The notes beneath the pieces are model-generated. The model worked only from the letters and a program-made list of their open reading frames with translations. It had not been told where the DNA came from and did not search any database. Positions 12,481-24,208 of a DNA stretch of 64,000 nucleotides are shown here, one piece after another. Position numbers and translations under genes: made by a program. The stretch is from Acinetobacter pittii (GTDB lineage Bacteria; Pseudomonadota; Gammaproteobacteria; Pseudomonadales; Moraxellaceae), in assembly GCF_034064985.1 (NCBI RefSeq), contig NZ_CP139249.1, positions 1,488,001 through 1,552,000 of the forward strand, given 5' to 3'. How positions within the stretch are numbered: position 1 is the first letter of the stretch; every line of letters begins with the position of its first letter.

Positions 12481-14751
12481 TTACCATTTATGGCTATAAG
12501 AAACTTTCAGCGTTGCACCATTTGCCACTAAATGGCTAGTGTTATCGCTAGTTCGTAATAATTGGCTATAGAGAGGATAGTACTTGCGGTTAAACATGTT
12601 CTCTAAACCAATCGTCACAGTGTCTTTTTTGTTAAGCGCAAAGCTACTGATTAAATCTGCTGTTGTATAAGTTTTTACATCATAGCGACCAAAACTATTT
12701 TTGCCATTTAAGCGGTAATCTTCTGAACCGAAGTAAGTAGCTTGTAGGCGGTTGGTCCATGTTTCAGTTGGACTATAAGAAATATAACCCGTTAGTTTTA
12801 ATGGTGGAATACGGAAGCCTGTCATGTCTTGTTCAGCACCGTTTTGAGGTTTTTCACGACCTTTCATCCACGTAACACTACCACCAGTTCCCCAAACATT
12901 AGCATCGTCAATATAGTCAAAAGTTGCTTCAACACCAGTGACTTTCTCTTTGGTTCTAGTAAGGGCCAGACCATTGCTGAAAGATTGCACAGCGCCTAGA
13001 TCAGAAGTAGAGTGGAAGACTGCTAAACTTGAAGAGAAATTGTTGAAGGTTCCTTTCCAGCCCAATTCATAGTTATCAACTTTTATAGGTTCTAAAAATG
13101 AAGATGATAATTCATAATTTTTTTCCTTATTAGTATTATCTGCATTACGAATAATTACACCAACATCGGGTAATTGAAAACCTTGGTTAAACGATGCATA
13201 AATCGAGTGCTGGTCATTTGGAGAGAAAGTCAAATTGGCATTGTATAACCATGCATCAGCTTTTACTTTCCCACCTTGATATACATAAGGGTTTGGCTTA
13301 TATGATTGTGTTTTAGGATCAAATTGTGATAATGGAATAAAACTATCAATTTGGGCATAGCTATCTTCATAGCGTGTACCTGCTTCAGCCGACCATTGGT
13401 CATTAAAGCGATGTTTTAACTGTACAAAGCCACCAACACTTTGTGTGGTAAGTTCAGGTAAATAAATGAGCTTACCAGTTTTTACAAAATCTAGGCCACC
13501 AGATTGGTCATAAATATCAGGATTGAAAGTATCTAAAGGCATTTCGCTTTTTTCACGGCTAAAGTCACCACCCCAAACCAGTGAGGTGTCACCTAAAAAC
13601 TCAAGCGGTGTGGTAACAGTTAAACGGCTACCGAGTATGTTATTTTCTTGATAGATTTGGTCTACGTTTCCACCCCGATTCGGATTTTTTCGTGCATCAA
13701 ATGGTGAAAAACGTGTAAAGAAGTCGCGATAATAAATTTGTGCATCAACCTTATTACCAAAAAAGTCTTTATGGTTATAAGTTAAATTGTAGATCTGGTT
13801 TTCGTTTTTATTTTGGTCTTTGAGCTTTAAGCCTTTAATTGCTTTCGCTGGTACGGTTCCAGCAGGGGCATTCTTCACACTTGGGTCAGATGCATAATCT
13901 GAGTCTTGCTCGGCATTATAATAGTTTGCAGCGAATTGTAGGTATTGGTTGTCATCAATATGATAACCAAGTTTACCACCTACGCTGTAAGCATCGGCAT
14001 CATATAAATCGCCTTGACTTGGTTCCGGTGCAACACGGTCACCACTTGCATCGTACGGACTACCAATACGTTGGTAACCAAAGTCGAGCGCATAGTCAAA
14101 AGCGTTAAAGCTGCCTGTGAAATATTGATGAATATCGCCACTTAAAGCATTAGAACGGAAATTTGTTAAAGGTGTTTGAAGTCCAACAACTGTTTTTGCT
14201 GTAGGTTCGCCACCAGCCGCTTTCGTGGTAATTGAAATAATACCACCTGCAGCGCCACCACCATAAATTGCGTTACTGCCTCGAATCACTTCAATGTTGG
14301 CAATACTTTCAGGGTCAATTGCTGAAAGTCCGCGTGATGTGTCACGTGTAAGGTTCATTGGTACGCCATCAACCAAGATGAGGGCATTACGGCCACGTAA
14401 AGTTTGACCGTAATCGGTAATGGTTCGGCTTGAATCTGACAGGCCCGGTACGGCTTTTGCTAAAACGGTTGCAATACTTCCAGATGAACCATTTCTTAAA
14501 AGTTCAATTTGTTTTTCATCTAGCTTGGTGACTTGTTTGGCAGAGGTAGAGAGTTCATCTGCGCGTGAAGCAGTAATTGTAATTGTCGGGAGAGCTTCGG
14601 GTTTCTTTTCTGTTTCTGTAGTTTCAGCAGGTGAAGCAGCAAAAGCTGAATTGGAAAGAATAATGGCCCCACCAAGTGAAAGGAGTGGAATGATATTTTT
14701 TACTTCAGACTTCCTCGTAAAAAGTTTGTGACTTTTTATCTTATTTACCAT
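12481..14751 (-). CDS. TonB-dependent outer-membrane siderophore receptor
   Basis: A 756-residue outer-membrane importer. A long signal peptide (about residues 1-38, ending AFA) is followed by a TonB-box-like PTITITASR and a plug domain with GQTLRGRNALILVDGVP and IEVIRGSNAIYGGGAAGGIISITTK, then a beta barrel ending in an aromatic residue (SYSHKW). The family imports ferric siderophores using energy from TonB-ExbB-ExbD. It sits downstream of, and in the same direction as, the sbn-like operon, but with its own Fur-controlled promoter, so the obvious ligand is the ferric product of that operon. That ligand is inferred from position, not from sequence. Confidence 0.88.
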   Translation of the reverse strand: MVNKIKSHKLFTRKSEVKNIIPLLSLGGAIILSNSAFAASPAETTETEKKPEALPTITITASRADELSTSAKQVTKLDEKQIELLRNGSSGSIATVLAKAVPGLSDSSRTITDYGQTLRGRNALILVDGVPMNLTRDTSRGLSAIDPESIANIEVIRGSNAIYGGGAAGGIISITTKAAGGEPTAKTVVGLQTPLTNFRSNALSGDIHQYFTGSFNAFDYALDFGYQRIGSPYDASGDRVAPEPSQGDLYDADAYSVGGKLGYHIDDNQYLQFAANYYNAEQDSDYASDPSVKNAPAGTVPAKAIKGLKLKDQNKNENQIYNLTYNHKDFFGNKVDAQIYYRDFFTRFSPFDARKNPNRGGNVDQIYQENNILGSRLTVTTPLEFLGDTSLVWGGDFSREKSEMPLDTFNPDIYDQSGGLDFVKTGKLIYLPELTTQSVGGFVQLKHRFNDQWSAEAGTRYEDSYAQIDSFIPLSQFDPKTQSYKPNPYVYQGGKVKADAWLYNANLTFSPNDQHSIYASFNQGFQLPDVGVIIRNADNTNKEKNYELSSSFLEPIKVDNYELGWKGTFNNFSSSLAVFHSTSDLGAVQSFSNGLALTRTKEKVTGVEATFDYIDDANVWGTGGSVTWMKGREKPQNGAEQDMTGFRIPPLKLTGYISYSPTETWTNRLQATYFGSEDYRLNGKNSFGRYDVKTYTTADLISSFALNKKDTVTIGLENMFNRKYYPLYSQLLRTSDNTSHLVANGATLKVSYSHKW

Positions 14752-14785
14752 TGTCTCGCCCTGAGAGTGATTTTAAATTTGTCGA

Positions 14786-14815
14786 ATTATAAGTGAGAAT
14801 GATTGTAATTCACAA
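14786..14815 (-). promoter_or_regulatory. Promoter of the TonB receptor
   Basis: On the minus strand TTGTGA (14810-14815) and a perfect TATAAT (14786-14791) are 18 bases apart, about 35 bases before the receptor start codon. The Fur-like box lies in the spacer and over the -35. Confidence 0.6.
14795..14813. promoter_or_regulatory. Fur box of the TonB receptor
   Basis: GAGAATGATTGTAATTCAC matches 14 of 19 positions of the classical GATAATGATwATCATTATC Fur consensus. It occupies the receptor promoter, which implies iron repression. Confidence 0.65.
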
Positions 14816-14904
14816 TATCGTTGTTGGACAAAAAATAATAAAATTTATTTTTATTAATTGTTGTGTAGAGGAAGGTGCACCCATCGCTCTACACAACTGA
14901 AAAT

Positions 14905-15678
14905 TTATGAGATTTCTTTATAAGAATTCAAATGATTTTGATGGGCACGGCGAATAATGCTGCGGTCATCACCGAGTACAAAAAGCTGAACGGATTGTTG
15001 TTTCCACGCTGCAATATCTTCAGGTTGGCGCGGAATAGCACAGAAATGCTTTTGACTATTTTTAGTCTTTATATACATCTCTTGAACTTTTTCTTTCACT
15101 TTTGGATGGCTAGATTGCCATGGCATTCCCATAGATTGAGAAAGGTCGGCAGCACCTTCCAGAATAATATCAACGCCTTCAACTTTTAATATTTCATCTA
15201 GTTGTTCTAGTCCTTCTAAGCTTTCTATCATGGTAACGACAACCGTTTCGTTTGCTGCGTGTTGAACAAAACTAGCTAAATCATCTATGCCATATCGATT
15301 TAACCTTGTCGAGTTGAGTCCTCTTTGCCCAAGCGGCATATAGTGGCAATAGTTCACAGCTTCTTGAGCTTGCTGAGCATTTTCAATACGCGGAAAAACA
15401 ATACCCGTTACCCCTGCATCGAGCAGAGGTAGAACTAAATGGTTGGTGTTTAACGGCACCCTGACAAAGACATCAAGACTCATGGCTCTAGCGGCTAAAA
15501 TCATGGTCTCGACTTGAGACGTACTAAATAAAGTATGTTCCAAGTCGATAATAATAAAGTTGTAACCCGCAAGTGCCATTTGCTCGACATTAATCGGAGA
15601 AGCTACGGAACAAAAGATTCCGTAGAGCGTCTCGCCATTTGCTATTCGTTTCTTAAAAGAAATCGAATGTTTATTCAT
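14905..15678 (-). CDS. sbnG: SbnG-like citrate synthase (HpcH/HpaI aldolase fold)
   Basis: A 257-residue HpcH/HpaI-family protein with the family's IDLEHTLFS, VFPRIENAQQAQEAV and EGAADLSQSMG stretches. In the staphyloferrin B pathway SbnG is a metal-dependent citrate synthase that condenses oxaloacetate with acetyl-CoA, supplying citrate independently of the TCA cycle. Length and gene order match SbnG. By fold alone it could be an aldolase on 2-keto-3-deoxy sugars; context favours the siderophore role. The ATG at 15678 overlaps the end of the synthetase fusion by eight bases, implying coupled translation; an in-frame TTG lies two codons upstream. Confidence 0.82.
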   Translation of the reverse strand: MNKHSISFKKRIANGETLYGIFCSVASPINVEQMALAGYNFIIIDLEHTLFSTSQVETMILAARAMSLDVFVRVPLNTNHLVLPLLDAGVTGIVFPRIENAQQAQEAVNYCHYMPLGQRGLNSTRLNRYGIDDLASFVQHAANETVVVTMIESLEGLEQLDEILKVEGVDIILEGAADLSQSMGMPWQSSHPKVKEKVQEMYIKTKNSQKHFCAIPRQPEDIAAWKQQSVQLFVLGDDRSIIRRAHQNHLNSYKEIS

Positions 15679-18600
15679 ATTCAATTTCCTTAATAAGGCT
15701 GAGCGGGTTCGGCGTGGTTTGTACTCTTAAGCGAATTTCTGGAAGGAAACGGCGGCTTGCGAGCTGTTCAATATCAATGGTGTCATCTGTAAAGTTAAAC
15801 AATTCATATCGCTCGGCAAACTCTGGGTGAGCTTCTTTATGCTGATTAATAATGGTTCTTAACATGGTCCAGAATTTGATTTCATCGAAGTCATAATGTT
15901 CATTTAAGAAAATCGCTAACTCAGCCAGATTTACAAACCAAAGCGCATCTTGAGTAAAGTCTCTTAACTCATTTGGAGAGTGGGTTTCCAAGAACGAGTT
16001 CGGGTTAATCTTGGCGTGCTCTTTTGGCGCATCTTGTAAGTTGGGTAAAAGGCTCGGCTCACGTAAAAGATGACGACTAAAACGAATTCCATCATGGAAA
16101 TCTTTCAAAGCCGCTTTAACGGGTAAGCCATTTTTATGAATTAGTACCATGTTTTGTGCATGTGACTCTAAAGCAAGGCCGTGGCACCACAAAATATGCA
16201 TGATGGGTAAATAAGCATTGGTAAGTAATTTTTCTAACCAGAACTCAATACCATACTCTTGGATCCACTCATCGATTAGTGGTTTTTGGTCCGTATCAAC
16301 TTGCATTAGACCCGTTACAGGCGTTGCTGATTCGCCTTCTTTTAAGTAGCTGTAAATACTTTCGCGCCAAATACAAGCCAGTGCGCCGTATTGAACAGGA
16401 AGCGCAATTTGCTGGTTCACTGAAAGACCGCCGATCTCTCTTAAAATAACAGGCTTACGCTGTTTTTCTAAAATATGGTCTTGTTCAACAATGTTATAAA
16501 GCCAGTCACTCATTTTTGCCGCATTTTGGACGGTATGTGGTGCTAATACACGAGAGGTAGAAGTATTGACCAAGTTCATTGCCAATTTAAGAGAAAGCGC
16601 CGAGATATCACTAATATTTGATAAGGTTCGAATGGACTGTTGCGGTAAATAAGTCGGACCTTCAATATCTAACGGGATGATCAGTTGGTTGCTAATAGCA
16701 TCTTGATAATATAATTCAATAATTTTATCCCACTGCCACGGGTGAATTGGGGTAAGGATATAATTTTTAAACTCTACATTTTGCTCTTTCAATTGATCAT
16801 TGATAGTTTGCAGATCTTTCTCTGAAAAATGCTGTTTATAAAGCTGCTCTAAGTTAATGGTTTCACTTAAAACCAGTTTGCATAAACTGTTATGAGTCGC
16901 CACCCATTGAACCGTAAAACCTTCGGAAAGCTCTGGTGCATACTTTTGATTTTCTTTTAAATCGAAGCCGATACGAGACTTAAAACTCGGGTGATATAAA
17001 TGTGCATTGGTAATCCGTGCTTCTTGTTCTAAATAAGGCAAGGTTCTTAAAGGTTGAGCAGGGGCTTGGCTTAAAGTTTGCGCATGCTTAATGTAAGTTA
17101 AATTGAGTTCATCATTAAAGTTTTGCCATTTAACTGGGTCAGCTTCAATAATATTTTTTAAATCGGCAAGTAGCGTTTTTAAGCTAGGACGAGTTTCAGT
17201 GCCTAAAGTAATATCAGAACGGACTAAGCTTGAAGGATCTAACTTAATTCGTTTAAAACTAAAATGTCGTTTGGCCGCGCAAGTATAAAAAACGGTATCG
17301 GAAATATAAAACTTGATCTGACCTTTAGAAAACTCGTATTTAAAAGTATTTTCAAAAATGAGTGCTTCTAATAATTGACTCATTACGCGATTTTCCGCGA
17401 GGGTTTTATAATTGGTTTGTTGGGTTGGTTGAATAGGGCAAAGTGCTTCTGCGCCGCGATATTTATAAATAGGGTTTTCAACTTCAATCCAGATAGGATT
17501 GCCACCACTGTGGTAGAGCGTATTTAACATATTTGCCTTGATTGGTAATGTGAGTGAATTAATTAATAAATCGCGGTACTGCTGGCCTTTTACGCTAAAA
17601 TTTTCTTGCGTGAGCGTAAGGCGTGTGGCTTGCCAAAGTTCAGATTCTTCAATGGCTGTAACTCGTGCAATTGCACTGATGAGATGAGCAATGTGATTGA
17701 TCACGAAGTAATATTTTAAAAAGGTCCACGCATCTTTCTGAGAGAACCAAACGGTACTATCTTCAGAAATAGATGAGTCATCTTCTATCATTTCTGGGAC
17801 AATGCTAATGCCTTCCATGTCTCGAAGAATAAGGCGATGTGGATAGCCGTTTTTAAATTCCATTAAACTATTTTGCATGTGCGCTTCTACGCTAATGCCT
17901 TTATTTGCAAACAACTCAATTAATGGAATGAGTGAAACTTTAACGTACTGTTTCCACCAGAAAGTAATGAAGTCTTTCGCGTCTTTCGATTGTAGATTTT
18001 GATTCGGTGCTGCTTGCTGAATAATGCTTAAAAGCGGGATTTCATGGTTTTCATTTTCTTCAACCAAGCCACCGAGCATTCTGGTATTTTCTAATACCTC
18101 TGGCGTGAGTCCTGCTCTATAAAGAATGCCAAATGAACTTTCAAGCTCTGGAATTTTGACTGTTTTTGCCTCTAACTCCGGCAGAATCATAAGGTCTGGA
18201 TATTGCTCATTAATGTTTTGATTAATAATAATTTTGCTCGCATCAATCGCGCGTTCCATTTCGTCCATTGGGTTATTGCGAATGAAACTGGTAATTCGTA
18301 CATCAATTGATAGCTTTAAGAATAGATTCGATTGAGGCAACCATACTGTACGAACGGATGAGGTCGGCCATACGGTTTGACCTAAAGCTCCCAGATAGAT
18401 CACGTCTTGGCTGTCTAAATGTTTCTTTAAAGATGGATGTTGAAGTAAGAAATTAGCTTGCCAAGGATGGGTTGGCATTAGCTCGTAATTTGCTAAGTTT
18501 TCTTGTAAACGTTCTTTTGCAGTTTTTAAAACTTCATCTTCAATACAATGAGAAGGCTGTTCTTCACTTACAAGCTTTTGGATTAAAGAAGAATGGATTG

Positions 18601-19198
18601 CAAAGTAATGAAGTTGGAAACTTGCGCCTAACTCAGGGCTATACTTTTTCATGTCTTCTTTAGAGAAACCTAAATTGGCTTTAGAGGTCACATGAAAAGG
18701 GTGCCCATATAACATGCCTTGTTCGGTTGCCTGAAAACCACTTAACGCTTTAGTTACTGTTTGGGAAGGCTTATTTTCTAAAAAGAATTTTGTATTTTCG
18801 ATACTATTTACAATATCGGAGTACAGGTTCTTATTTTGATTTTTATCTTTAAATAAGCTATTCAATTCATCTGTAATCAGCTTCACTAATTTTTTAGGGT
18901 CGGTGAGTGAGTCAAATGTATTGTCACTTAAATTTTGCAAGGTAAAACCACGTTGATATCTATGGTAGCCAGTGGTGGATAGATGCTGAACTGCACCATA
19001 AACAGTCGTGTTAGACGCATTAAAGGTATAAGCAAAATACAGTGTGTCTGGTTGCTCCGCATATAGGGTGAATAAAGGAGAATCTTGAGCTGGGATAATG
19101 TGCTTTTCAAGATTTACTTTGAGTTCACGAAAGAAAGTATTCAGGTACTGTTCGAAAAGTTTATAAGACCATGCATCGGTTGTAATAATTGAGTTCAT
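15671..19198 (-). CDS. Fused double NIS siderophore synthetase (SbnE-SbnF-like)
   Basis: A 1175-residue protein made of two complete IucA/IucC-type synthetases in tandem. Half one (about 1-590) has GHPFHVTSK at 165-173, THPWQ and a C-terminal FhuF-like part with LILRDMEG. Half two (about 595-1175) has YHPSFKSRIGFD, PIHPWQWD, SIRTLSN, ESHAQNMVL and LKDFHDG. NIS synthetases adenylate a carboxylate and join it to an amine. In Staphylococcus, SbnE (citrate with diaminopropionate) and SbnF are separate neighbours in the same order, so I read this as an SbnE-SbnF fusion; assignment of each half rests on order and motifs. ATG at 19198 shares ATGA with the sbnD stop. An upstream in-frame extension overlaps sbnD and is rejected. 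Confidence 0.85.
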   Translation of the reverse strand: MNSIITTDAWSYKLFEQYLNTFFRELKVNLEKHIIPAQDSPLFTLYAEQPDTLYFAYTFNASNTTVYGAVQHLSTTGYHRYQRGFTLQNLSDNTFDSLTDPKKLVKLITDELNSLFKDKNQNKNLYSDIVNSIENTKFFLENKPSQTVTKALSGFQATEQGMLYGHPFHVTSKANLGFSKEDMKKYSPELGASFQLHYFAIHSSLIQKLVSEEQPSHCIEDEVLKTAKERLQENLANYELMPTHPWQANFLLQHPSLKKHLDSQDVIYLGALGQTVWPTSSVRTVWLPQSNLFLKLSIDVRITSFIRNNPMDEMERAIDASKIIINQNINEQYPDLMILPELEAKTVKIPELESSFGILYRAGLTPEVLENTRMLGGLVEENENHEIPLLSIIQQAAPNQNLQSKDAKDFITFWWKQYVKVSLIPLIELFANKGISVEAHMQNSLMEFKNGYPHRLILRDMEGISIVPEMIEDDSSISEDSTVWFSQKDAWTFLKYYFVINHIAHLISAIARVTAIEESELWQATRLTLTQENFSVKGQQYRDLLINSLTLPIKANMLNTLYHSGGNPIWIEVENPIYKYRGAEALCPIQPTQQTNYKTLAENRVMSQLLEALIFENTFKYEFSKGQIKFYISDTVFYTCAAKRHFSFKRIKLDPSSLVRSDITLGTETRPSLKTLLADLKNIIEADPVKWQNFNDELNLTYIKHAQTLSQAPAQPLRTLPYLEQEARITNAHLYHPSFKSRIGFDLKENQKYAPELSEGFTVQWVATHNSLCKLVLSETINLEQLYKQHFSEKDLQTINDQLKEQNVEFKNYILTPIHPWQWDKIIELYYQDAISNQLIIPLDIEGPTYLPQQSIRTLSNISDISALSLKLAMNLVNTSTSRVLAPHTVQNAAKMSDWLYNIVEQDHILEKQRKPVILREIGGLSVNQQIALPVQYGALACIWRESIYSYLKEGESATPVTGLMQVDTDQKPLIDEWIQEYGIEFWLEKLLTNAYLPIMHILWCHGLALESHAQNMVLIHKNGLPVKAALKDFHDGIRFSRHLLREPSLLPNLQDAPKEHAKINPNSFLETHSPNELRDFTQDALWFVNLAELAIFLNEHYDFDEIKFWTMLRTIINQHKEAHPEFAERYELFNFTDDTIDIEQLASRRFLPEIRLRVQTTPNPLSLIKEIEYE

Positions 19199-20400
19199 TC
19201 TTGTGCCTCTTCTAAAATTGTATCCATTAAGAATCTGTTCAAAATCACCACTAATCCCGCACCGATAAAAAATAGTGAGGTGCAAATTAATGCAGCAGTA
19301 ATATTGAAAAATGAGTAGGTGAGCGTGATCGTGATTGGGCCAATAAGTTGTCCTAAGACAAAGGCACTGTTAGAAATACCAATCACTTTTCCTTGGCTTT
19401 GAGCGCCGGCTTTTAGAGAAATTGTGTGCAAGATCGAAGGAATAAGGGCTGCAAAGCAGAAGCCTTGTATGAGTCGTAACACAAGAATCAGCCAGAGATT
19501 AGAAACCCAGATCAATGCGAAAATCGTGATACCGCAAATTAAGGATGCGTAAATGAAGTTATTAAAAGAATCTCCTTTATCATCATTTCTTTTTCCCCAA
19601 TAGGTTGCAGCAATAAAGGCTGCTCCCCATGAAAGCGCATGAATGGTTCCCGTTAAACTCGCAGCAGATAACGATGAGTGAGTGCTTTGGCTTATTTCAC
19701 TAATGTATAAAACGAAGCAGGACACCAAACCAAAGCCGCCCGCTTGAACCAAAATGCCGGCGCTTAACCATGAAAAAATCGTTCTATCAAAGAAAGCTGG
19801 AAGCTTAGATTTCTCTTTGGTTTTTGTGGTTTCGGTTTTAACGGGATTGGTTAATACAAATGACGCAATCACAATGAGTGTCATCACAACAAATGCTGTC
19901 GCGTTGAGTAATATTTCAACCCGCCATTGATCCATAAATATCCCGCCGAGTACGGGACCACATAGGCAAGCGAGTGCAACACTACTTTGCAGTTGTCCAA
20001 AAGCGGCGCCTCGTTCTTGCTCATTCGAGAGATATGAAACATAAGCATTTAAAATCACGGAAAGACCGCAAAACCCGAGTAAAATTCGCGCGAAAATAAA
20101 TAGGTATAAATGCTGGGCGCTCGCCATGAGCAGTATTGAAATACAGAAACCCGCCAGAGAAAGTAACAAGGCTTTTTTATGGCCGAATGTGTCGGATAGG
20201 TGGCCAACAATCGGTGCTGTAAATAAGCTGCCAATAGCCGGAGCCGCGAGTGCCAAACCTGCCCAGATAGTGGGAGCACTCATATGCGCCGTCAGTTTTT
20301 CCATATAGAGCGGCATGATCGGAATAAGCACCATGAGCCCGAAAGTGGAAAAAAACTGACAGAGCAAAATAATGAAATGATCTAGGCGAGATGAGCGCAT
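19195..20400 (-). CDS. sbnD: SbnD-like MFS siderophore exporter
   Basis: A 401-residue inner-membrane transporter with about 12 membrane segments and the MFS loop GHLSDTFGHKKA between segments 2 and 3. It lies between the sbnC-like and sbnEF-like genes, as sbnD does in Staphylococcus, with a 3-base gap upstream and a 4-base ATGA overlap downstream. SbnD is taken to export staphyloferrin B; here the same role, inner membrane to periplasm, follows from context. The substrate cannot be seen in the sequence. Confidence 0.82.
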   Translation of the reverse strand: MRSSRLDHFIILLCQFFSTFGLMVLIPIMPLYMEKLTAHMSAPTIWAGLALAAPAIGSLFTAPIVGHLSDTFGHKKALLLSLAGFCISILLMASAQHLYLFIFARILLGFCGLSVILNAYVSYLSNEQERGAAFGQLQSSVALACLCGPVLGGIFMDQWRVEILLNATAFVVMTLIVIASFVLTNPVKTETTKTKEKSKLPAFFDRTIFSWLSAGILVQAGGFGLVSCFVLYISEISQSTHSSLSAASLTGTIHALSWGAAFIAATYWGKRNDDKGDSFNNFIYASLICGITIFALIWVSNLWLILVLRLIQGFCFAALIPSILHTISLKAGAQSQGKVIGISNSAFVLGQLIGPITITLTYSFFNITAALICTSLFFIGAGLVVILNRFLMDTILEEAQE

Positions 20401-20403
20401 GAT

Positions 20404-22098
20404 TTAGATATCCATGGTCTCATAGCTAGAAACAGATAAGCTGTGATAGGGGTTTGGCGTAGTTCCGATTTTACTTGGCATGCCTGTTGAGTCGCTTTCT
20501 TGCGCAAGTAAAGGCGTAAGTAGCTGTTTGAATGGCCAAGTCTTATTGTCAAAAAGATAGGTTTGAATTTGCGATTTTGTTTGTTCTGAAATGGGTTGGG
20601 TTTCTACAAAATCTTGAATAATGTCTTGAACCATCTCCCAAAAATCGCTTTCTGTAAGATCCGTATATTTCAAGATAGCTAAAGCAATCGGGTAGAGATT
20701 AATTTGAATCCCTAAGGTAATGAAGTAATTAAATAAGTCTTCGTTTTTAGTAAAGATAAGATTGTTCGGCGTGCTGGTATCGATGGTATAAATCGGAGGA
20801 GTAAAACCACTTTCTTCAATGGCTGTGGTACATATTCTTAAGGTATCGTGGTCACGCAAAATAAAGCATTTCAACTTATTATTTTCATAACACACCATGG
20901 TGTTTTGCCCGTGACATTCAGGCATGATGCCTTTCGACCAAAGCGTTAAGAATGTTTGAATAAAATGAACACTTAAGTCTTTTAGTAATGACCATTTGTC
21001 GCCTTCAACGCCTAAAGCTTCCCATGGGTCGACATAGGTACAGCTTAAAGCTGACATAGTGATTGGAGTGACATTTTTGTCTCGGCAAAAGTCCGGTAAA
21101 TGTCGGACTTGGCAACCAATCACCCCTAAATTTTTTACAATCGGCTCTTGTTTACCCAGCACCCACCAGTGGGTTTCATTGCTCAAAAAGAGGCGATTTT
21201 TTATTAAAGCAGTTTCATTAATGACGTCATTTAAAAAATCATAAGCCGTATGTCCATTCATTAAATAACGGCCTGGCATAGAACGGATTGCGCCTAATGT
21301 TTTGGCATTGGTTGATAGTTTTAAATGTAGAGTAGGGTTTGTGTTGTGAATCAGCGTTCTTAAAGAAGAAGTCGGTAAACCAATCGTGGTGACATGGTTT
21401 AGGTCAATACCTTCATACTTATTTTCTTTAAGCTTTAAATAGCGATGTTGCGTCTCTAACAAAGGCAGGGCTAAGTAGTCATCTGAAAGCTCAGCCATTT
21501 TGTCAGTAATAAGACTTTCCTCAACTTCTGATAACAGAAGCTCTTTGTGAGGAATCGACTCCATATTGTTGATCACATCATCCTTCTTAAATGCCCACCA
21601 ATACACCTCAATTTCTTTTTGAGTTGTGATTGGTGCAAGTTCACCTTTTGAGTGAGCGAACGGATGAAATGGACGGTCAGCTACCAGTGAGAGCAGTTCG
21701 CTAGTAACTAAAGGCGAAGAAAATGAAAGGGCTGACTGTAAAATTTGGGGAATTTTTTCAGCCGTTACTAAGTTGTCTAGCCAGTAATTAATCGCTTTTT
21801 GATGGTGTGGCGATGGCCACCAATTTGCTTGGGTTAAATAGTTAAAAACTTCAGAAATAGAAATTTTAGATGTCGTATTGCTCAACAGGTTATGAAGCAG
21901 AACTTCGGGATGAGTAACATAGAAAGGATTTACACCATCTACTTTTAAACAGTTGAAATAGAGTTCCAACTCATCATTGAGAGTAATTGCCAGATAAGGC
22001 TTTTTATAGGAAATATGATCTTTAAAATCTCCATAATTCTCCATGTAGAGTGCATCTATCGTTTTTTGTAGTTGTGCTGTGTAAATCCGATCTAACAT
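20404..22098 (-). CDS. sbnC: SbnC-like NIS siderophore synthetase
   Basis: A 564-residue IucA/IucC-type synthetase. Visible are the ATP-site elements TIGLPTSSLRTL and LKLSTNAKTLGAIRSM, and the C-terminal MPECHGQNTMVCYEN with LRDHDTLR, which match the FhuF-like half of the family. In staphyloferrin B assembly SbnC adds 2-oxoglutarate to the citryl-diamine intermediate. Position directly after sbnB and before sbnD matches that cluster. The ATG at 22098 is chosen; a 25-residue upstream extension would overlap the sbnB end. Placement as SbnC rather than another NIS type is by gene order. Confidence 0.82.
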   Translation of the reverse strand: MLDRIYTAQLQKTIDALYMENYGDFKDHISYKKPYLAITLNDELELYFNCLKVDGVNPFYVTHPEVLLHNLLSNTTSKISISEVFNYLTQANWWPSPHHQKAINYWLDNLVTAEKIPQILQSALSFSSPLVTSELLSLVADRPFHPFAHSKGELAPITTQKEIEVYWWAFKKDDVINNMESIPHKELLLSEVEESLITDKMAELSDDYLALPLLETQHRYLKLKENKYEGIDLNHVTTIGLPTSSLRTLIHNTNPTLHLKLSTNAKTLGAIRSMPGRYLMNGHTAYDFLNDVINETALIKNRLFLSNETHWWVLGKQEPIVKNLGVIGCQVRHLPDFCRDKNVTPITMSALSCTYVDPWEALGVEGDKWSLLKDLSVHFIQTFLTLWSKGIMPECHGQNTMVCYENNKLKCFILRDHDTLRICTTAIEESGFTPPIYTIDTSTPNNLIFTKNEDLFNYFITLGIQINLYPIALAILKYTDLTESDFWEMVQDIIQDFVETQPISEQTKSQIQTYLFDNKTWPFKQLLTPLLAQESDSTGMPSKIGTTPNPYHSLSVSSYETMDI

Positions 22099-22115
22099 TT
22101 TAGTTATTCCTATTC

Positions 22116-23129
22116 TTATAAAAGCGGTAGAACCGTGCCAACGTTTTGTTCTTGTGCAGCATTGAAGAACCATTTAGCGCAGACAATGTCATCAATCGCC
22201 ATGCCCATTGGGTTTAGCAAAATGATTTCATCTTCGTGTTCGCGGCCGTTTTTATGACCAATAATGATGTCGCCAAGTTCAGCATGTAGTTTTTCACGGC
22301 TGAATAAGCCATCTTCAACCAGTACGTTGATGACTTTCTTTTCTCGGTTTGATTGATCCCAGTCATCTACAATCACTTTGTCTACTTTTAAGAAGACTTC
22401 AGGCTCAATGTCCATAATTGAAATATTTGAAACAAAGCAGCCTTTTTTAAGCCACTCAAATGGAATGTAAGGTTTATCTGAAACTGTGCAGGTAATGAGG
22501 ACATCGGCTTGTTGAATCGCAGACTTAGCACTGTCATGAATTTCAATTTCTAAATGTGGATATTCTGATAAAAACAACGCTTTGAGTTTTTCAGCTGCTT
22601 CAGGGTTCACATCAAATAAATGGATTTTTTTCACTTGAGCGTATTGCTCAAGTACAGTTTTAATCTGCATTTGAGCAATTGGACCGCAGCCAATTACAGT
22701 AATGTCTGAAAAGTCTTTTTTTGCTAGATATTTAATTGAAACACCAGTAATTGCCGCAGTTCGCATGGCACTGATGAGACTGCCTTCCATCACTGCAACT
22801 GGATAATTTGTTTCTGAGTCATTTAAAACAATCAGTGCGCTGGCACGCGGAATATTGAATTTTTTAGGGTTATGTTGTCTTGAACCAATCCATTTGATTC
22901 CGGCAATCGGGTCGTTGCCGCCTAAATAACAAGGCATAGCGATAATACGGTCCGCAATATGGTCAGCACCTTGCCAGCGAAGATAAGGTTTTAAGGGTTG
23001 TACAAACTGCTTATTTGCATGCAGGGTTAAACCTTCAGTAATCGCTTCAATAAATGAATTACTATGATTTGCGCCAAGATTTAATAAATCTGATTGACTT
23101 AAATAGCGAAGGGTAGCCAAATTGCTCAT
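22116..23129 (-). CDS. sbnB: SbnB-like N-(1-amino-1-carboxyethyl)glutamate dehydrogenase
   Basis: A 337-residue ornithine cyclodeaminase/mu-crystallin fold protein. It shares long identical stretches with staphylococcal SbnB as I recall it: FVQPLKPYLR, HIADRIIAMP, GIKWIGS, SNISIMD, NREKK and DEIILLNPMGMAI. The Rossmann site is VIGCGPIAQMQ. SbnB oxidatively hydrolyses N-(1-amino-1-carboxyethyl)-L-glutamate with NAD to release L-2,3-diaminopropionate and 2-oxoglutarate, both building blocks of staphyloferrin B. It follows sbnA by 21 bases and precedes sbnC by 17. Confidence 0.92.
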   Translation of the reverse strand: MSNLATLRYLSQSDLLNLGANHSNSFIEAITEGLTLHANKQFVQPLKPYLRWQGADHIADRIIAMPCYLGGNDPIAGIKWIGSRQHNPKKFNIPRASALIVLNDSETNYPVAVMEGSLISAMRTAAITGVSIKYLAKKDFSDITVIGCGPIAQMQIKTVLEQYAQVKKIHLFDVNPEAAEKLKALFLSEYPHLEIEIHDSAKSAIQQADVLITCTVSDKPYIPFEWLKKGCFVSNISIMDIEPEVFLKVDKVIVDDWDQSNREKKVINVLVEDGLFSREKLHAELGDIIIGHKNGREHEDEIILLNPMGMAIDDIVCAKWFFNAAQEQNVGTVLPLL

Positions 23130-23150
23130 GAATATTTCCTAAGGAGAAGG

Positions 23151-24155
23151 TTAAACAACATTTTGTAAAGTAAGGTTTTCTTGGCGTCGTACGTTTCGAT
23201 TGAAGTGGCGCTTCTTGATCATTTCGAACCATTCATCTTCATAAACCAGATCGAGATAACGGTCACCGCGATCGGGCAGCAACGTTAAGACGCACGATCC
23301 ATCAGGAATGGTTGGAATCAGTTTTTTGATGGCTGAAATTGACGAGCCGCTCGAACCGCCTGCAAAAATTCCTTCATATTCAAGAAGCTCTCTGCAACCG
23401 AGTGCCGACTCATAGTCATCTACATAAATGACATCATCAATTTCATCGGGGGAGAGTAGTGGTGGGACAGTACTTGCACCAATACCAGGAATTTCGCGTG
23501 GACCAGATGTGCCACCGAACAACACAGAGCCGACGATATCGACTGCGATCACTTTTAATTCTGGAAATCTTTCTTTAAGGCGACGAGATACGCCCATAAT
23601 CGTGCCTGAGGTGCTCGCCCCAATCACGAGGTAATCAATTTTGCGGTCAATTTGATTTAGGATTTCTTCTGCTTCTCCAAAATAATGGCTTTTCCAGTTG
23701 TTTGGATTTGCATACTGATTAATCCAGACAGCATTCGGCAGTTGTTGGCAGAGTCGTTTTACAGTGTCAATTCTGGTTTTTAAGTAACCGCCGTTTTGGT
23801 CTTTTTCAGAGACCATTTCGATATTGGCCTTGTAGAGCTTCAACATTTGTAAGTTTGCTGAGGCAATTTTCGGGTCAATAACCGCAGTAAATTTTAATCC
23901 ATAGATTTTGCATGCCATTGCAAGCGCAATAGCTAAGTTCCCTGATGAACTTTCAACAATATGACTATCTTTATTAATCACTCCAGATTTCAGGCCTTCC
24001 TGTAGCATGAATAATGCCGGACGGTCTTTAATACTTCCTCCTGGGTTTAACAATTCCATTTTCGCAATCACTGAGATCGATTGATGCGTGAATAGCCTTG
24101 ATAATTGTAGTAGTGGCGTTTTACCTATGCAGTCGAGAATATTTTCATGGATCAT
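23151..24155 (-). CDS. sbnA: SbnA-like 2,3-diaminopropionate biosynthesis synthase (PLP)
   Basis: A 334-residue cysteine-synthase-fold PLP enzyme. PLP is held by the Lys in NPGGSIKDRPA; ESSSGNLAIALA and GASTSGTIMG contact substrate and phosphate. Stretches typical of SbnA rather than CysK are WINQYANPNNWKSHY, PGIGAS, DDYESALGCRELLEYEGIFAGGSSGS and LPDRGDRYLDLVYEDEW. SbnA joins O-phospho-L-serine and L-glutamate to form the SbnB substrate. It is the first gene of the operon, preceded by a Fur-like box 34 bases before the start. Confidence 0.93.
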   Translation of the reverse strand: MIHENILDCIGKTPLLQLSRLFTHQSISVIAKMELLNPGGSIKDRPALFMLQEGLKSGVINKDSHIVESSSGNLAIALAMACKIYGLKFTAVIDPKIASANLQMLKLYKANIEMVSEKDQNGGYLKTRIDTVKRLCQQLPNAVWINQYANPNNWKSHYFGEAEEILNQIDRKIDYLVIGASTSGTIMGVSRRLKERFPELKVIAVDIVGSVLFGGTSGPREIPGIGASTVPPLLSPDEIDDVIYVDDYESALGCRELLEYEGIFAGGSSGSSISAIKKLIPTIPDGSCVLTLLPDRGDRYLDLVYEDEWFEMIKKRHFNRNVRRQENLTLQNVV

Positions 24156-24189
24156 GGTAGATCTTCTCAGGTTTTTATGTGGTGTGAAT

Positions 24190-24208
24190 GATAATGATTA
24201 TTAATTAA
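24190..24208. promoter_or_regulatory. Fur box of the sbn-like operon
   Basis: The first 12 bases, GATAATGATTAT, match the Fur consensus perfectly and the whole 19-mer matches 14 positions. It lies upstream of sbnA in AT-rich DNA where the promoter must be. I could not choose the promoter hexamers with confidence. Confidence 0.65.

Follow-up and report, generated by a model that had tools for sequence, protein, structure and literature searches.

An sbn-type siderophore operon in Acinetobacter without the decarboxylase SbnH and with an arginine-to-phenylalanine change in SbnE

In a stretch of 64,000 nucleotides from the genome of Acinetobacter pittii (contig NZ_CP139249.1; the whole stretch is called the window below), seven open reading frames (ORFs), all on the minus strand, were confirmed at positions 12481-24155: sbnA, sbnB, sbnC, sbnD, a fused sbnEF, sbnG, and the gene for a TonB-dependent receptor. 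Two features of this locus are newly described here. The decarboxylase SbnH is absent across the Acinetobacter loci and present in nearly all of the loci compared from other genera, and an arginine in the acceptor pocket of the SbnE half is replaced by phenylalanine. We propose, as a tentative reading to which we give slightly less than an even chance, that this is an iron-regulated operon of sbn descent for a siderophore of the type independent of nonribosomal peptide synthetases (NIS), and that its decarboxylation step was dropped through a changed substrate of the first synthetase. The features are as follows.

23151..24155, minus strand: sbnA; TIGR03945, 435.9 bits (cut-off 349.95); PDB 5d84, E 4.9e-117
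22116..23129, minus strand: sbnB; TIGR03944, 402.5 bits (cut-off 326.9); PDB 4m54, E 1.3e-120
20404..22098, minus strand: sbnC, NIS synthetase; top family NF033583 SbnC, 254.5 bits, under the cut-off of 700; PDB 7cbb, E 3.4e-52
19195..20400, minus strand: sbnD, exporter of the major facilitator superfamily (MFS); Pfam MFS_1
15671..19198, minus strand: sbnEF, fused NIS synthetases, 1175 aa; N half SbnE-type, C half SbnF-type
17720..17722, minus strand: codon for Phe493 of SbnEF, aligned to AcsD R501 (recognition of the acceptor carboxylate)
14905..15678, minus strand: sbnG; PDB 4tv5, E 1.5e-59; Pfam HpcH_HpaI
14752..14904, minus strand: 153 bp between sbnG and the receptor gene; sbnH sits after sbnG in most other loci
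12481..14751, minus strand: TonB-dependent siderophore receptor; TIGR01783, 249.7 bits, above cut-off; Plug and barrel domains
24189..24203, no strand assigned: Fur-box-like site TGATAATNATTATCA, 1 mismatch, upstream of sbnA

The absence of SbnH was followed with tblastn in 76 loci with an SbnEF alignment, drawn from the best 80 of 241 confirmed stretches, and in three plasmid loci, whose SbnH proteins served as queries. None of the ten named Acinetobacter loci has an SbnH match in the 7.6-10 kb of sequence available after sbnEF, whereas 67 of the 69 loci from other genera do, including the three that supplied the queries. The remaining 64 positive loci reach 358-852 bits, where LysA does not exceed 138, and in the two negative ones (L068 and L107) the contig ends after 773 and 882 bp. 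In 56 of the 69 loci outside Acinetobacter, SbnA, B, C, and G occur all together, and SbnH accompanies them in 55; the remaining loci are partial or rearranged. Two of the loci, L095 and L115, represent one species.

The source genome (3.89 Mb in 2 contigs, rated 100% complete) yielded no second relative of SbnH: its one match to the SbnH profile is at LysA level, and its single PF02784 gene is LysA itself (NCBIfam, 533 bits; cut-off 298), so that a hidden sbnH elsewhere in this genome was rejected. Likewise, an AcsE-type decarboxylase beside the synthetases, as expected of an achromobactin cluster, was not found at the locus, the relative in the genome again being LysA. A LysA-level match occurs in all 175 Acinetobacter genomes searched with the SbnH profile, sbn or no sbn, and a second match in five of them (G095, G137, G124, G144, and G159), always above 200 bits; the last three are not among the genomes with SbnA matches. 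SbnA above its cut-off is found in 17 of the 175 genomes and the fused sbnEF in 16 (15 at 94-100%, one at 65%). G137 alone among these 16 has a second relative above 200 bits, and this candidate, a diaminopimelate-decarboxylase-like enzyme, was set aside as sbnH because its chain includes an acyl carrier domain and its gene adjoins that of an acyl ligase on another contig (L119:5784-7397, C19); in G157, a second, weak PF02784 match reaches 85 bits. The fusion of E and F does not explain the loss of SbnH either, because 16 SbnH-bearing loci of other genera have fused E-F. Among these relatives, the loci of Marinomonas, Marinobacter, Zobellella, and Pseudoalteromonas share the fused sbnEF and the order A-B-C-D-EF-G, but they differ in having sbnH directly after sbnG and in retaining the SbnE arginine. 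In Methylobacterium aquaticum 22A, where SbnEF is likewise fused and sbnI is lacking, a siderophore has been demonstrated by the chrome azurol S (CAS) assay and mutants; there, however, sbnH is present, and the sbnH mutant is CAS-negative (excerpts of PMC9301485).

The second change lies in SbnEF itself. In the 69 non-Acinetobacter loci, 36 columns of the SbnE half are invariant, and exactly one of them differs in every one of the 11 Acinetobacter rows (the window and the ten loci): an arginine has become phenylalanine. S. aureus SbnE lies outside that comparison set. The position concerned, 493 of SbnEF, is aligned by HMMER to R501 of AcsD; phenylalanine stands there in all 16 Acinetobacter genomes that carry the fused gene, among them the source genome, and arginine is retained in the 16 fused, SbnH-bearing loci of other genera. 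Among 52 proteins from the SbnEF search, phenylalanine is found in the six closest, five of them from Acinetobacter and one 79% identical, as well as in P0034, a nematode record, and arginine in 40 of the other 45; the five without it (P0032, P0048, and P0050-P0052) are 662-792 aa long, with no full fused pair. P0034 (UniRef, Ditylenchus dipsaci) combines a TonB plug with NIS synthetase domains, is 76% identical to SbnEF across 31% of the query, and is probably bacterial contamination. The equivalent of the catalytic Glu442 is kept in all 99 rows, and the SbnF half has aspartate at the aligned position in 40 of 40 sequences, from Acinetobacter or otherwise.

What the arginine may do is suggested by work on AcsD, which couples citrate to L-serine and in which R501 was modelled as binding the acceptor carboxylate (PMC3323832, in the sections cited here). 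In the same report, R501K lowered the activity with L-serine 14-fold and left that with ethylenediamine about unchanged, and AcsD accepted L-2,3-diaminopropionate (L-Dap) and also 1,3-diaminopropane. With L-Dap unchanged as the first acceptor of SbnE, the arginine would be expected to stay; its loss in the genus that has no SbnH suggests a carboxylate-free amine.

The seven genes can be joined into a putative pathway, with functions assigned by homology. SbnA, the N-(2-amino-2-carboxyethyl)-L-glutamate synthase of step one toward L-Dap, and SbnB, the dehydrogenase of the following step, would supply L-Dap and 2-oxoglutarate; SbnG, a citrate synthase with the HpcH/HpaI aldolase fold, would supply citrate. 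The SbnE half would then join citrate to a carboxylate-free amine in place of L-Dap, the SbnF half would attach L-Dap, and SbnC would attach 2-oxoglutarate. SbnD is the predicted exporter of the product, and the TonB receptor may take the ferric form back in. In other words, if the acceptor of SbnE has no carboxylate, no decarboxylase would be needed. For the amine we favour 1,3-diaminopropane, made by Dat and Ddc; ethanolamine and ethylenediamine are alternatives. The preference has three grounds: production of this diamine has been reported for Acinetobacter, dat and a ddc-like gene are present, and other Acinetobacter siderophores, such as acinetoferrin, contain it. Its production by Acinetobacter is reported in PMC10267138 and its occurrence in baumannoferrin in PMC10483418. 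In the source genome, Dat scores above its cut-off, and the gene after dat has L-2,4-diaminobutyrate decarboxylase as best match (387 bits, under the cut-off of 900). The full version of the proposal, in which Acinetobacter switched from L-Dap to 1,3-diaminopropane, a plentiful amine in this genus, via the arginine-to-phenylalanine change, the decarboxylase became redundant, and the product is the one-carbon homologue of staphyloferrin B (C17H26N4O11, 462.160), seems to us rather doubtful.

Several points weigh against the acceptor switch. The R501A mutant of AcsD showed no activity with any of the nucleophiles tried (PMC3323832), and for this reason phenylalanine does not amount to a proven carboxylate-free pocket. 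Glu442 of AcsD gives preference to acceptors whose amine lies at a two-carbon distance from the nucleophile, and L-2,4-diaminobutyrate, with its three-carbon spacing, was barely active (same source); because of this preference, ethylenediamine and ethanolamine fit better than 1,3-diaminopropane. The uniqueness of the column depends on strictness: with conservation relaxed to 97%, four of 59 columns are changed, the arginine among them, and at a 93% threshold in a 40-sequence set, seven are. An NIS synthetase of another Acinetobacter cluster, that of genome G067, keeps the arginine (in a weaker alignment), and no decarboxylase was found in that cluster. The loss of SbnH and the replacement of the arginine may each be a single event in one genus; because each is seen in one genus, their coincidence cannot be replicated, and because the fit comes from one genus, we put the acceptor switch forward as a hypothesis.

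The genes that remain are well kept. The mean dN/dS (ratio of nonsynonymous to synonymous substitution rates) per gene lies at 0.015-0.110 between the window and eight Acinetobacter loci (L047 was used in addition), and with L044 added, no internal stops were found in the seven coding pieces across ten Acinetobacter loci, receptor excluded. The sbn genes other than sbnH are thus under purifying selection, and, because of the low dN/dS and the lack of internal stops, the product made without SbnH is presumably useful. Three of the 16 genomes (G014, G045, and G157) have one stop within the range of the 1204-aa query; since their open frames are 1187-1192 codons long, these stops lie before the 1175-aa start. 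Upstream of sbnA lies the candidate site for iron control: the 15-base inverted Fur-box motif has three sites in the window at two mismatches or fewer (one with 1, two with 2) against 0.78 expected, a number reached in 5 of 100 shuffles, and the 19-base Fur consensus has no match in the window. When the DNA before sbnA in the window was aligned with that of nine loci, the box proved almost identical in most of them; in L042 and L047 it is weaker. Relative rates were compared in a hand-picked set made up of the window and 39 of the 79 loci. Conservation is highest in SbnA and SbnB, and the top ratios against a mixed proteobacterial set, 1.22 for SbnE and 1.20 for SbnG, are both modest; an accelerated SbnC as the sign of a new substrate was rejected, since neither relative rates nor lineage-specific substitutions single it out.

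These data bear on three other explanations. The SbnE half may keep L-Dap as its acceptor, with the carboxylate left in place and SbnF and SbnC accepting the carboxylated intermediate; the product would then be carboxy-staphyloferrin B (C17H24N4O13, 492.134). This agrees with the lack of SbnH at the locus, with LysA as the sole relative found in the genome and SbnA and SbnB nevertheless the best-conserved proteins, and in achromobactin 2-oxoglutarate is likewise carried on a carboxylate-bearing diamino acid. The acceptance of L-Dap by AcsD (PMC3323832) also speaks for it. It predicts, however, that the arginine for the acceptor carboxylate is kept, yet this is the very column, the sole strictly conserved one to change, that is lost in all Acinetobacter rows, and SbnC, which would face the new substrate, has no special change; we consider it unlikely. 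Authentic staphyloferrin B might also be made with a decarboxylation in trans, either by LysA or another enzyme acting on citryl-Dap or by Ddc, which would turn free L-Dap into ethylenediamine. The source genome encodes both LysA and a group II decarboxylase, the Ddc-first version is compatible with the phenylalanine and with the spacing rule of Glu442, and Ralstonia and Cupriavidus are reported as makers of staphyloferrin B (PMC3179956). But 67 of the 69 other loci keep a dedicated SbnH, its disruption in Methylobacterium 22A abolishes the CAS reaction (PMC9301485), and LysA is not marked as recruited, because its match occurs in every Acinetobacter genome regardless of sbn; we regard this route, too, as improbable.

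It could further be supposed that the loss of sbnH broke the pathway and that the remainder of the operon persists by chance. Of 33 receptor-bearing Acinetobacter genomes, 17 lack sbnEF, which tells us that biosynthesis can be lost or absent. Such decay is nevertheless very improbable in view of the dN/dS values, the seven pieces without stops, the upstream box conserved in most loci, and the induction of the sbn genes of A. oleivorans DR1 along with CAS activity (PMC5658608), although DR1 also has an acinetobactin-type cluster. The candidate products differ in expected monoisotopic mass, staphyloferrin B at 448.144 and the ethanolamine analogue at 449.128 against 462.160 for the 1,3-diaminopropane analogue and 492.134 for the carboxy form, and can hence be told apart.

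The first-pass annotation of this stretch had recognised a staphyloferrin B-like sbn locus. The locus as such is borne out by the seven ORFs, by the scores of SbnA and SbnB above their NCBIfam cut-offs, and by solved structures, with 5d84 and 4m54 at the top for the two proteins; its gene list had no sbnH, and the operon indeed has none. The term "staphyloferrin B-like" needs a qualifier, as one would not by default expect authentic staphyloferrin B where SbnH is missing and the SbnE arginine is replaced. The annotation was further unaware of any description of the locus in this genus, but such descriptions exist. A table of 2011 in PMC3179956, where the S. aureus operon is named sbnA-I, has the entry "Staphyloferrin B?" for Acinetobacter sp. 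DR1 and remarks on the missing sbnH homologue. In 2017, PMC5658608 reported induction of the DR1 sbn operon on C30 alkane, with sbnA induced on hexadecane too, and CAS activity; since DR1 carries the acinetobactin-type cluster as well and no sbn mutant is shown in the excerpts of that paper, the CAS signal need not come from sbn. The DR1 operon is very probably the same locus as ours; sbnE and sbnI were called missing there, whereas the window has E joined to F and lacks H. SbnA and SbnB are also placed within an NI-siderophore region of A. pittii (PMC11089254), about 4.2% of a staphylobactin cluster family falls in Acinetobacter (PMC11162802), and three staphylobactin-like clusters at 12% similarity are given in PMC10149724. 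Among the open-licence papers listed by the searches, judged by title, start of abstract or excerpts, we found no determination of the product of an Acinetobacter sbn locus. The query mark of 2011, staphyloferrin B without SbnH, can now be turned into a specific, testable proposal. If it is true, an NIS pathway has shed a step through one active-site change, and an undescribed siderophore is predicted in the A. calcoaceticus-baumannii complex; this would bear on annotation (the "staphylobactin" calls of antiSMASH-type tools), on the design of siderophore drugs, and on which ferric siderophore is imported by the associated, more widespread receptor.

The sbn genes of S. aureus run in the order A, B, C, D, E, F, G. 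The same order is seen here, and SbnA, B, C, and G match solved structures that correspond to S. aureus Sbn proteins: 5d84 was deposited as SbnA, and we take 4m54 (labelled putative ornithine cyclodeaminase), 4tv5 (aldolase), and 7cbb (IucA/IucC family protein) to be S. aureus SbnB, SbnG, and SbnC, respectively. In contrast to S. aureus, E and F are fused, sbnH is absent, the operon has no ORF for sbnI (elsewhere the genome was not searched for it), and a TonB receptor is attached. As to sbn membership, the SbnA and SbnB pair is joined by three NIS synthetases, SbnE, SbnF, and SbnC, of which SbnC and SbnF stay under the cut-offs of their exception-type models, and by the citrate synthase SbnG through its match to 4tv5. 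SbnEF has two stretches each of Pfam IucA_IucC and FhuF and matches NF033586 SbnF over residues 631-1196 (579 bits, under the cut-off of 900); its N half matches the synthetases AcsD and IucA, AcsD being the top PDB match. Its start is most likely at 19198 within an ORF of 1204 aa, judging from homologues of 1175 aa, and sbnC has an alternative ORF start at 22173. With the probable starts, A-B, B-C, and C-D are separated by 21, 17, and 3 bp, and D-EF and EF-G overlap by 4 and 8 bp; the earlier figure of 3-17 bases or overlaps therefore fits every junction but A-B. An MFS gene between sbnC and sbnE is found in Acinetobacter and in many, not all, of the other loci among the matches listed. Amine N-hydroxylase and acyltransferase genes, the mark of a baumannoferrin cluster, are not among the ORFs of the operon. 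The baumannoferrin gene list is given in PMC10483418.

The TonB receptor follows sbnG in all ten named Acinetobacter loci. It was found at E 1e-150 or better in 33 of the 175 Acinetobacter genomes; because 17 of these carry it without sbnEF, the view that it is dedicated to this locus is weakened, and it may serve more than one ligand or take up the siderophores of others. Partial receptor copies without sbnEF occur in G032, G087, and G090, the G090 copy with stops. The receptor adjoins other NIS clusters in G031, G067, G090 (the broken copy), G098, and G172. As for the surroundings, at least one flank is common with the window in five of the ten named loci (L039, L041, L044, L045, and L046), and in G061 the corresponding site has no sbn genes, the operon beginning about 58 kb away. 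At the umuC/NMT1 site of G067 (G067:C1:642500-661800, L122), a receptor 92% identical to that of the window stands beside a different NIS cluster with three synthetases, an N-monooxygenase, a FhuF-like reductase, and a second TonB receptor. Compared with the window, this is a swap of siderophore clusters at one site; we presume the G067 cluster to be baumannoferrin-like.

Three further systems should be mentioned. G095 carries a separate three-synthetase NIS cluster (G095:C1:1917000-1936000, L120) with an SbnH/AcsE-like decarboxylase (432 bits) and an SbnG-like aldolase; no SbnA above the cut-off was found in this genome, and the cluster is perhaps achromobactin-like. In G081, which has the receptor and no fused sbnEF, an SbnA-family gene above the cut-off (G081:C131:76671-77582) perhaps belongs to another L-Dap pathway. 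Finally, a two-module nonribosomal peptide synthetase with a thioesterase, adjoining enterochelin-esterase-like and MFS genes (G000:C1:1910000-1925000, L128), probably gives the source genome a second siderophore system, of the catecholate type.

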